Below, piece by piece: positions 52,248-56,900 of a stretch of DNA of 64,000 bases. How positions within the stretch are numbered: the stretch's first letter is position 1; each line of letters begins with the position of its first letter. Origin of the DNA: Nitrospirota bacterium (GTDB lineage: Bacteria; Nitrospirota; Thermodesulfovibrionia; Thermodesulfovibrionales; UBA1546); the NCBI GenBank assembly GCA_016208915.1, contig JACQXE010000004.1, positions 1 to 64,000 of the forward strand, read 5' to 3'. The notes beneath the pieces were generated by a model that saw only the letters and a list, made by a program, of their open reading frames with translations, was not told the origin of the DNA and searched no databases. The position numbers and the translations under genes were made by a program.

Positions 52248-53102
52248 TTGCTATTGATGATTCTGACTCAGTTAACAGAAGATACCTTTGAACAAGTCTT
52301 ATCCATTTCTGAAAAATCACCTATCGATCTTCGTGATGTGATCTTCGTAGACCCTTATGGCATGGTTTCTATCCTTGAAATCGGAGAAATTCTGAAATCC
52401 GAATCCAACAAGAAATCTATTTGTCTGCCGGAGTCAGAAGAAGTTCTTAAATATCTAGAAAGGATGGATTTCTTTAAATTTGCTGATGAGTATTTCAGGC
52501 TCGAACCATTCAAGCCTAAGATATCGGGAAAATATCTGAGGAGTTCATATTCAGATGTCCTTCTTGAGATTACGCCGATAGAAAAATCAGATGACATCCA
52601 TTTTATCGTTGGAAAGGTAAAAGAGCGGGCTAATGCAATCCTCAAAAAACATCTTCACTACGATGAAAAAGTAATAAACGGCTTTATCGTTGCCCTTTCA
52701 GAGGTCTGCCAGAATATAATAGAGCACAGCGAGACAAAGGGATTTGTAGGGATACAGAAATATTTCTGGAAAAACATTGAAAAAAATATTGTCAAAATCG
52801 CGGTGATGGACATTGGAATAGGTTTTAAAAAATCCCTATCAGAGCGATTTCGATTAAACAATGACTTTGACGCAATTGAAAAGGCGCTTTTGCACGGCGC
52901 CTCACGTTATGCTGATGAAGGCAGAGGCCACGGCCTTGCATCTGTAAGACGGTTTGTAAATCAATGGAACGGCAAACTCTCAATCCGCTCTGGCACGGCA
53001 AAACTCTCAATTATTCCAGATTGGGCAAAAGGTAAAGAAAAAGAAACAAGCCTCACGCACTTCCCTGGCAGCCAGATAAATATCCTCCTTCCTGAGGTTT
53101 AA
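52248..53102 (+). CDS. STAS-like/HATPase (anti-sigma-factor type) regulatory protein
   Basis: ALSEVCQNIIEHSETKGFVGIQKY...IAVMDIGIGFKKSL...GRGHGLASVRRFVNQWNGKLSIRSG HATPase motifs. Confidence 0.75.
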   Translation: MLLMILTQLTEDTFEQVLSISEKSPIDLRDVIFVDPYGMVSILEIGEILKSESNKKSICLPESEEVLKYLERMDFFKFADEYFRLEPFKPKISGKYLRSSYSDVLLEITPIEKSDDIHFIVGKVKERANAILKKHLHYDEKVINGFIVALSEVCQNIIEHSETKGFVGIQKYFWKNIEKNIVKIAVMDIGIGFKKSLSERFRLNNDFDAIEKALLHGASRYADEGRGHGLASVRRFVNQWNGKLSIRSGTAKLSIIPDWAKGKEKETSLTHFPGSQINILLPEV

Positions 53103-53145: not shown

Positions 53146-53180
53146 TTCACTTTTCACTTGACTTATACCTCTCTTTTATG

Positions 53181-53200
53181 ATTCAATTGAATCAATTGAA
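53181..53200. promoter_or_regulatory. Tandem TCAATTGA palindromes upstream of TIR/R-M operon (candidate operator)
   Basis: ATTCAATTGAATCAATTGAA. Confidence 0.4.
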
Positions 53201-53260
53201 GTAAAGAGCGCCTAAGGAGCCGTTTAAAGGGGTGAGGAAGGAGAGGTAGAAAGGAGGAAA

Positions 53261-53304
53261 CATGAATAATATTCTACTTTTACATGAATAATATTCTACT
53301 TTTA
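53261..53304 (+). repeat. Perfect 22-bp tandem duplication spanning the start codon of the TIR-like gene
   Basis: (CATGAATAATATTCTACTTTTA)x2. Confidence 0.97.
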
Positions 53305-54165
53305 TATGATACCCAAGAAGAAGATTTAGCCCGGGACTTTAAATATTTACTTGCTGAATTTGCTATTAGAGTAACCATGATTCCTTTATCATCTAATAAG
53401 GGGAAAACCCTTCAAGACAAAGAAGAACACTATTTTGATTTTGCCGATGGCGCAATTTTTATAATTACCCCGGGATCCTATAGATTTGGTAAGACATTCC
53501 CTTCACCAAGCGTTTGCGATGAAATGGGGCAGGCAAAACGCAAGTTCAAAGATAAACCCGAAAAGATAATTTACTTAGTAGACAAAAACTGCACCCTTCA
53601 AGCCATAGATCAGAAGCCTTACATTCCATTTGATCGTAACGATATAAGGTCTATTGTAAAGGCAATCATTTTGTTTATTAAAGACTTAAAACAGGCAGGT
53701 TGTTTTGGTAAAAGCAAGATCGAACAAAAAGAGACTCCAATTAGAGATATAGCTAAATATTCAGAATCGATTGATGAAAAGCTTAAAGAAATTTGTTTCG
53801 ATCTTAGCAAACAACCGAATGGTTTTATAGCACCTACAGAATTTGATAATTTGTTAAAGGCGAAATATAGAATGAACCAACAAGATATAAACTTTGCAAA
53901 AATTGACCTTACCGAAAAAGAACTTGCTAAATATTATCAACCTAATCCACCGCTTTTCGCTGGAGGATGGCAATTAATTAGTATGGGTTGGAAATTAGTG
54001 AGATATGAAAAGGAAGAACAAAAAAAGAGGCAAATATCAAACCATCTTTATGGATTATATGACCCTTCGGCTTTAAGTGAACTTCCTGCTTTACTCACTA
54101 ATTATGTTATTTCTCCTAAAAGAATGGGACTTCTTGATACTTTAAAACGGAAAAATGAACCCTAA
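53284..54165 (+). CDS. TIR-like N-terminal domain protein, first gene of R-M operon
   Basis: NILLLYDTQEEDLARDFKYLLAEFAIRVTMIPL...DFADGAIFIITPGS...SVCDEMGQAKRKFKDKPEKIIYLV has TIR/TIR-like periodicity; overlaps downstream MTase by 11 nt. Confidence 0.55.
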   Translation: MNNILLLYDTQEEDLARDFKYLLAEFAIRVTMIPLSSNKGKTLQDKEEHYFDFADGAIFIITPGSYRFGKTFPSPSVCDEMGQAKRKFKDKPEKIIYLVDKNCTLQAIDQKPYIPFDRNDIRSIVKAIILFIKDLKQAGCFGKSKIEQKETPIRDIAKYSESIDEKLKEICFDLSKQPNGFIAPTEFDNLLKAKYRMNQQDINFAKIDLTEKELAKYYQPNPPLFAGGWQLISMGWKLVRYEKEEQKKRQISNHLYGLYDPSALSELPALLTNYVISPKRMGLLDTLKRKNEP

Positions 54166-55444
54166 ATCCACCATAATCATCGGCGATAGCCGGAGAATGA
54201 GCGAGCTAAATGATGAGAGTGTTCATCTTGTTATTACCTCTCCGCCTTATTGGCAGTTGAAGGACTACGGTAATGGTAGCCAGATTGGATTTAATGACAG
54301 CTACGAAGATTATATAAATAATCTGAATCTTGTCTGGAATGAATGTTACAGAGTTTTACATAAGGGATGTCGTCTCTGCGTCAATATTGGAGACCAATTT
54401 GCAAGGTCTGTTTATTACGGCAGATACAAGATTATCCCTATCAGGGAAGAAATAATAAAATTCTGTGAAACAATCGGCTTTGATTACATGGGTGCAATAA
54501 TTTGGCAGAAGGTTACAACATGCAATACTACAGGCGGAGCAACAATCATGGGTTCTTTCCCATATCCGCGAAATGGGATAATTAAGCTTGATTATGAGTT
54601 TATTTTAATTTTCAAAAAGCTCGGTGACCCTCCAAAAGTCAGCAGAGAGATCAAAGAAAAATCAAAAATCACAACTGAGGAGTGGAATAAATATTTTTCA
54701 GGTCACTGGAATTTTGCAGGAGAAAGGCAGGATAAGCACCTTGCCATGTTCCCTGAAGAATTACCGAGGAGATTGATTAAGATGTTCAGTTTTGTCGGGG
54801 ATACCGTTCTCGATCCCTTTTTGGGCAGCGGCACGACCTGCCTCGCAGCGAAAAATCTTAACAGGAATTCAATCGGATACGAAATTCATAAAGATTTTCT
54901 GCCAACAATAAAGGCAAAATTAGAATCCTCTGATATTGAAATAATCAATCAGAAAAAACTAAAAATTGATTTCAAGGATGAAATTAAAAAACTGCCTTAT
55001 ATTTTCAAAGACCCTGTAAAATTCGACAAAAAAATTGACCCTAAAAAACTAAAGTTCGGCTCCCGTGTTGACAATTCAGATCATTCACGCGAGACATATC
55101 ACACAGTCAAAGAAATCTTAACACCTGAAGTTATTGTCCTTGACAATGGCCTTAAGGTCAGACTTATAGGGGTAAAAGAAAAGAAAGAGACAAATGGAGA
55201 GGCAGTAAAGTTTCTTGCCGAAAAATTCAAAGGCGAAAAGGTTTTCATGAAATATGACAGTCAAAAATTTGATAAGGATGGAAATCTGCAATGCTATCTG
55301 TATCTTAAAAACAAGACTTTTATCAATGCGCATCTAATCAAGAATGGTCTTGCTGAAATAGACACTGAATTGAATTTCAAACTCAAAAGTAAATTTACAA
55401 GTCTCTGGAAGGAATGCCATCATGCCATTCAAGAAGTTCGCTAA
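54155..55444 (+). CDS. DNA methyltransferase with C-terminal SNase-like domain
   Basis: HLVITSPPYWQLKDYG (motif IV), VLDPFLGSGTTCLAAKNLNRNSIGYEI (motif I); C-term VIVLDNGLKVRLIGV...AVKFLAEKFKGEKVFMKYD...YLYLKNKTFINAHLIKNGLAEID. Confidence 0.85.
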   Translation: MNPKSTIIIGDSRRMSELNDESVHLVITSPPYWQLKDYGNGSQIGFNDSYEDYINNLNLVWNECYRVLHKGCRLCVNIGDQFARSVYYGRYKIIPIREEIIKFCETIGFDYMGAIIWQKVTTCNTTGGATIMGSFPYPRNGIIKLDYEFILIFKKLGDPPKVSREIKEKSKITTEEWNKYFSGHWNFAGERQDKHLAMFPEELPRRLIKMFSFVGDTVLDPFLGSGTTCLAAKNLNRNSIGYEIHKDFLPTIKAKLESSDIEIINQKKLKIDFKDEIKKLPYIFKDPVKFDKKIDPKKLKFGSRVDNSDHSRETYHTVKEILTPEVIVLDNGLKVRLIGVKEKKETNGEAVKFLAEKFKGEKVFMKYDSQKFDKDGNLQCYLYLKNKTFINAHLIKNGLAEIDTELNFKLKSKFTSLWKECHHAIQEVR

Positions 55445-56114
55445 AAATTTTGGCAGTAAAGAGATCATCCTGAACTATGCAAACAGGCGCTGGGGTTTTA
55501 CAAAAACTAACAAAGTTGGTGAAGTCATGGCATCGATACGGCAATGCCAACCGCAAACATTCCAAGAATGGCAGGAATGGTATTTTAAAAATGCTTTTAC
55601 AAATACTAAACACCCGATAAAAATAACAAAAGAAATACTCACAGAGCTCGGCCAGAGATTGTATGAAAAGATAACTGAAATCGTTGCTCCGCAATTGCGT
55701 GAGGCGCTTGCAACACTGACCTTGCAGGATTGTATCGATTATGTATACGAATTGACGATTCATCGGACATTTGATGGTTATTTGACTGAAAAGTCAGTTG
55801 TTCATGACATTCTTGCCAAGAAATTTCCTGACATTGTGTTTGAAGAGACGAATCCAGATCTCGACCATGCCGGTGATATTGATTTTATCGGCAAAGTTGG
55901 CAATAAAGCATTTGGTCTTCAGATCAAGCCTGTCACCGCGCAAGCCAGCATGGGTAATTTTTCGGTTACAGCCCGCATGGAACAATCATTTCGTGACTTC
56001 GAACGACAGCATAGCGGAAAGGTCTTTATTGTTTTTAGTGCTGAAGACAAGATTTTCAATAAAGAGATAGTTGAAAAAATCAGGGAAGAAATAGAAAGAC
56101 TAAAAAATGCATAA
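55422..56114 (+). CDS. MjaI-family type II restriction endonuclease
   Basis: NRRWGFTKTNKVGEVMASIRQCQPQTFQEWQEWYFKNA; PD-(D/E)XK candidate DHAGDIDFIGKVGNKAFGLQIKP; overlaps MTase end. Confidence 0.78.
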   Translation: MPFKKFAKNFGSKEIILNYANRRWGFTKTNKVGEVMASIRQCQPQTFQEWQEWYFKNAFTNTKHPIKITKEILTELGQRLYEKITEIVAPQLREALATLTLQDCIDYVYELTIHRTFDGYLTEKSVVHDILAKKFPDIVFEETNPDLDHAGDIDFIGKVGNKAFGLQIKPVTAQASMGNFSVTARMEQSFRDFERQHSGKVFIVFSAEDKIFNKEIVEKIREEIERLKNA

Positions 56115-56336: not shown

Positions 56337-56900
56337 ATGATTAAATATGACCTTTATAAACTCCTTAAGGAAGAACTGAAGAACGGTTCTGCCGACCTTG
56401 TCACGAGGAATTCGGGGCAGGTGATAAGGGAGAGGATTGAAAGGGATATCGCCGGTGAAAAAGACGGAGAGGTTATCGCCCTCGATTTTTCGAAGATTGG
56501 TATAATCGACTACTCCTGCGCTGATGAGATTGTGGCAAAGCTCATTTCAAGGCTTGTCAGCAATGAATACGGGGATAAATATATTGTCTTAACAGGGCTA
56601 ACTGAAAACCAGAAGGAAAACATAGAGGTCGCTCTTGAAAGAAAAGATCTTGCTGTAATGGTGGAGATGAAGAATGGGGAAAAAATTCTTATCGGCAATC
56701 TTAACAATTATTTGCAGGAAACGCTTGCCTTTGTATCCAAAAAAGCAAAGATAACAGCTAATGACCTTTCTGCTACCTTAAAACTTCCTGCAAATACAAG
56801 CGGCACCAGGCTTTTGAATCTCTATAAGAAAAGGCTTGTGAAAAGAATTGATGAGATAAGGGACGGCGGAAGGGTTTGGGTGTATGAATCTTGTTTATAG
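56337..56900 (+). CDS. STAS-like domain regulatory protein
   Basis: EVIALDFSKIGIIDYSCADEIVAKLISRL...KYIVLTGLTENQKENIEVAL. Confidence 0.6.
   Translation: MIKYDLYKLLKEELKNGSADLVTRNSGQVIRERIERDIAGEKDGEVIALDFSKIGIIDYSCADEIVAKLISRLVSNEYGDKYIVLTGLTENQKENIEVALERKDLAVMVEMKNGEKILIGNLNNYLQETLAFVSKKAKITANDLSATLKLPANTSGTRLLNLYKKRLVKRIDEIRDGGRVWVYESCL

Follow-up and report, generated by a model that had tools for sequence, protein, structure and literature searches.

A perfect 22-bp tandem duplication lies across the start codon of a gene for a TIR-like protein in a Nitrospirota genome, within the 64,000-nucleotide stretch of contig JACQXE010000004.1 analyzed here (the window). Does this repeat switch a potentially toxic effector on and off, as the original prediction proposed, or is it a mutation that lowers translation of the gene? 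We favor, with a probability of about 0.7, a private slippage mutation with an attenuating effect on the TIR-like gene, which would now be translated from its displaced ATG by re-initiation without a Shine-Dalgarno (SD) sequence, over an evolved switch. A 22-base copy of the start site in one groundwater-type bacterium thereby probably weakens production of the protein.

The duplication separates the start codon from its Shine-Dalgarno sequence

The array at 53260-53304 (+) consists of two exact copies of ACATGAATAATATTCTACTTTT and one further nucleotide, the letters at i and i+22 being identical for i = 53260-53282. Copy 1 (53260-53281, +) contains ATG1 at 53262, and copy 2 with the additional nucleotide (53282-53304, +) contains ATG2 at 53284. 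The SD sequence AAGGAGG (53251-53257, +) has a spacing that fits ATG1 and is 22 nt too far away for ATG2. It gave the best anti-SD pairing, -11.6 kcal/mol, at a distance of 3 nt to ATG1 and 25 nt to ATG2; by the same scoring, no comparable site lies nearer to ATG2 and nothing was found within 20 nt of it. ATG1 opens only a nine-codon leader ORF, MNNILLLHE* (53262-53291, +), which is a product of the duplication and is missing in all five orthologues. The leader stop codon (53289-53291) starts 5 nt after the A of ATG2, the first codon of the 293-aa TIR-like protein (53284-54165, +). Copy number alters the frame of the native start, the unit length of 22 not being divisible by 3.

The original prediction had described a perfect 22-bp tandem duplication at 53251-53304, and we could confirm both sequence and coordinates, with the array proper slightly wider than the repeat described. 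The ideal SD spacing of ATG1, the short MNNILLLHE* frame and the placement of ATG2 22 nt farther away in another frame were likewise correct. The RNA structure that the two copies can form is weak and does not exceed that of shuffled sequences (z -0.59). We found no conserved operator or other cis element in the duplicated stretch, where synonymous identity over codons 1-18 (0.63) equals that elsewhere. Ahead of the TIR-like gene, the promoter search returned a single weak sigma-70-like match, TTCACT-18-TATGAT (53153-53182, +), whose 9 of 12 matching positions are no more than expected by chance.

The two-copy state is derived

To judge how unusual the duplication is, we scanned 40 windows, each of 64 kb and simulated with an order-1 Markov model, for perfect two-copy repeats with a period of 12-59. 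None occurred, which indicates that the 22-bp repeat is a real duplication event. Stretches of the same genome totaling 1.04 Mb contain 12 perfect tandem duplications with a period of at least 12 (about 12 per Mb). Duplications of this kind are thus not rare here. Two have a period of at least 20, namely the start-codon array and one on another contig, a perfect two-copy 22-bp tandem duplication of different sequence (G000:C76, L033 13176-13219).

Comparison of orthologous loci, which the original prediction had suggested as a check, identified five orthologues in other Nitrospirota/Thermodesulfovibrionia genomes, 55-68% identical. All five carry the 22-bp unit as a single copy and none has the repeat. 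AAGGAGG stands at normal spacing in four of them, 3 nt from the single ATG in L003, L004 and L005 and 2 nt in L002 by anti-SD scoring, and the SD of the L006 orthologue is weaker than in the other four. It follows that the two-copy state is derived and, on the evidence of these genomes, private to this one, and the predicted one-copy state, in which the SD directly drives the effector, gains support as the ancestral arrangement. The other searched members of the same family yielded no orthologue. Searches of the class and phylum returned no further full-length orthologue, and the five genomes matched there look like the same five judging from gene lengths. Searches of plasmids, phages and viral contigs returned none either.

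The displaced gene encodes a TIR-like protein under purifying selection

AlphaFold2 modeled the 293-aa protein with modest confidence (mean pLDDT 63). Foldseek comparison of this model showed that the N-terminal half resembles TIR domains, with SfSTING TIR-STING at E 8e-5 and SPARTA, SARM1 and RRS1 TIR at weaker E-values; the TIR matches include 7un8, 9lmq and 8k34. The C-terminal half resembles MarR-type winged helices in the same structure comparison. The window protein itself had no sequence match above the curated cut-off and none that was significant, and sequence-based structure searches gave nothing useful, whereas some relatives match Pfam TIR_2 and CAP12-PCTIR_TIR weakly (E about 0.001). 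The predicted fold and these weak matches in relatives bear out the earlier label "TIR-like", and on the modeled structure the protein is a TIR-fold protein. Glu80 in an SxSxxxEM motif is invariant across the six members and would be the catalytic Glu of a predicted NAD-consuming activity.

The protein thus shares a TIR-like fold and the invariant Glu80 with bacterial TIR effectors such as TIR-STING, the SPARTA TIR and the Pfam families TIR_2 and CAP12-PCTIR_TIR. It differs from them in its winged-helix-like C terminus, which takes the place of STING or Argonaute partners, in adjoining a type II restriction-modification pair, and in lacking a significant sequence match of its own. The TIR region is under purifying selection (dN/dS 0.09-0.18 for the window gene). 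The window gene shows no acceleration, having 7 private substitutions where the other members have 4-14, and we saw no excess of private changes that would indicate relaxed selection after the duplication. The intact, non-accelerated ORF points either to a recent duplication or to continued production of the protein.

The gene heads an overlapping restriction-modification operon

The TIR-like gene is the first in an overlapping operon that continues with a methyltransferase and an MjaI-type restriction endonuclease. The gene for the N4/N6 DNA methyltransferase, which carries a fused staphylococcal-nuclease-like domain (54155-55444, +), shares its first 11 nt with the end of the TIR-like gene, and the type II endonuclease gene (55422-56114, +) shares its first 23 nt with the end of the methyltransferase gene. 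The pair was identified by N6_N4_Mtase (E 4e-45) and RE_MjaI (E 5e-30). The SD of the methyltransferase is weak (-3.5 kcal/mol) and that of the endonuclease better (-5.7). TIR and methyltransferase genes are also linked in L004 and L005, in L002 with a remnant of the methyltransferase, and in L003 with the two genes some distance apart. The methyltransferase-SNase fusion is the modification enzyme of the MjaI-type system; in L005 (7845-8873) the methyltransferase ends early, is devoid of the SNase-like domain and runs straight into a DUF4325 gene.

Upstream of the array, the window retains the decayed 3' end (..KEPFKGVRKER*, read from the sequence at 53213-53249, +) of a conserved gene for a 57-aa small protein. 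In five of the six loci the TIR gene has this 3' end ahead of it, and in L006 (6822-6992) the small-protein gene upstream of the TIR gene is intact. Elsewhere in the genome that carries the window, the 3' end also occurs close to a GIY-YIG-like gene and a methyltransferase (L014, about 1499-1549), and homologues of the small protein occur on 70 plasmid records. On the other side of the operon, a DUF4325/STAS-HTH gene (56337-56897) stands beside mutS. By eye, differing defense-type genes, including SIR2-like genes, methyltransferases and restriction enzymes, occupy the 1.5 kb upstream of the DUF4325 gene in about 6 of 11 relatives (L036-L046), so that the DUF4325/mutS site looks like a chromosomal defense hotspot. 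A HATPase-domain protein with a STAS-like-looking N terminus and a weak DrmA match in PADLOC is encoded at 52248-53102. In L003 and L005 such a protein likewise occurs together with DUF4325, and the two may form a regulatory pair.

Probable attenuation through re-initiation without a Shine-Dalgarno sequence

We propose that strand slippage copied the 22 bp spanning the effector start codon in this lineage, recently if the identity of the copies and the intact ORF are a guide. The array resembles spontaneous short tandem duplications made by replication slippage (PMC2991278) in being an exact head-to-tail copy, in its near-zero terminal homology (a perfect match of 1 nt only) and in its confinement to one genome. 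Unlike ordinary duplications of this kind, it lies on a start codon and affects the start of translation rather than the protein sequence. The native SD would now serve the nine-codon leader, and translation of the effector would depend entirely on ribosomes finishing the leader just beyond ATG2 and restarting there without an SD. The geometry, with the SD taken by the leader, speaks for the dependence on re-initiation that the original prediction had assigned to the two-copy state.

As in termination-reinitiation at overlapping genes (PMC6728339), the leader stop overlaps or adjoins the start region of the next ORF. In contrast to such pairs, the leader contains no SD for ATG2, the best site being 25 nt off, and is itself an apparently recent duplicate of the gene's own start. 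Because the leader stop is near ATG2 but no SD is found there, translation of the TIR-like protein is probably cut several-fold rather than abolished. This estimate of size is taken from other organisms: three overlapping gene pairs of E. coli lost 60-90% of re-initiation when the SD was removed and a fourth lost it entirely, and an SD inside the upstream ORF is common, though not obligatory (PMC6728339). Post-termination ribosomes scan in both directions for an SD-preceded start (PMC5972666) and would here return to ATG1, the only such start. One ribosome-profiling study in E. coli argues against re-initiation as a major route of coupling (PMC7538156), in which case the block could be near complete. 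The output of the methyltransferase may drop along with the TIR-like protein because its start lies inside the TIR gene and has a weak SD. Such attenuation is possibly mildly beneficial or neutral. Since slippage between adjacent short repeats can proceed without RecA (PMC2991278), precise loss of one 22-bp copy is possible, and one further event could undo the duplication.

Switch or mutation?

A contingency locus requires variation and, in most cases, a long array that is maintained across strains; in known examples such arrays keep switching rates high. The array studied here has just two copies, at one locus and with no known variant, so a contingency locus is not established. The proposal that slippage toggles the copy number and selection keeps the repeat, with SD-driven translation from one copy and re-initiation from two, draws on a unit that is not a multiple of 3, on its position exactly on the start codon, on a TIR-like protein being a plausible toxic effector, and on the RecA-independent and potentially recurrent deletion of short repeats (PMC2991278). 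The frame geometry of the original prediction stood. The switch itself gained no support, given two copies in one genome, 0 of 5 relatives with the repeat, no second variant in the assembly and comparable duplications elsewhere in the genome at a low background rate, and we regard it as rather improbable; toggling is conceivable in principle, and an evolved on/off switch is unsupported. The simple-repeat contingency loci of Neisseria and Haemophilus (PMC5320596, PMC11868660) are similar in having a repeat at the 5' end with a frame-changing unit, but the present case differs in its two copies in place of an array, in the lack of conservation of the repeat and in a downstream ORF that retains its own ATG at any copy number. 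Our literature search found no account of two-copy 22-bp phase variation at start codons. Somewhat less probable still is a selected two-state translational switch of the effector together with the coupled restriction-modification operon, in which low effector levels would avoid self-damage and revertants would survive phage.

The duplication could instead be neutral and without real effect if ATG2 were reached efficiently by re-initiation or direct initiation. The close overlap of start and stop, the weakly structured region (z -0.59) and the preserved, non-accelerated ORF are consistent with this explanation, but the absence of an SD within 20 nt of ATG2 and the usual weakness of SD-less re-initiation (PMC6728339) make it unlikely. 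It is also improbable, slightly more so than a contingency switch, that the second copy is an assembly or consensus artefact absent from the organism. The genome is a draft of 88 contigs and apparently metagenome-assembled, its catalogued relatives being MAGs, yet the 45-bp array fits well within a short read or large k-mer. It occurs once in the assembly, in the interior of a contig that is 64 kb or longer, and no one-copy version competes with it on another contig. Most repeat assembly errors, moreover, collapse copies instead of creating them. An evolved regulatory leader peptide, acting as an attenuator or uORF that senses the translation state and controls the effector, would account for a nine-codon ORF that overlaps the start of the gene, and some bacterial genes, iraD among them, are regulated by overlapping leaders (PMC5574718). 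This leader, however, merely duplicates the gene's own first codons, is present in 0 of 5 orthologues and is accompanied by no unusual RNA structure, which renders such a role highly improbable.

Implications

A switch at this locus, if true, would matter more than an attenuating mutation, but it is unsupported. Gene callers would annotate the TIR-like gene from ATG2 and overlook that the SD serves a different ORF. Should the attenuation prove real, the locus would be a clean natural case of a one-step, reversible mutation that lowers a costly immune effector through displacement of the start codon, and a methyltransferase translated from inside the effector gene may be lowered as well.
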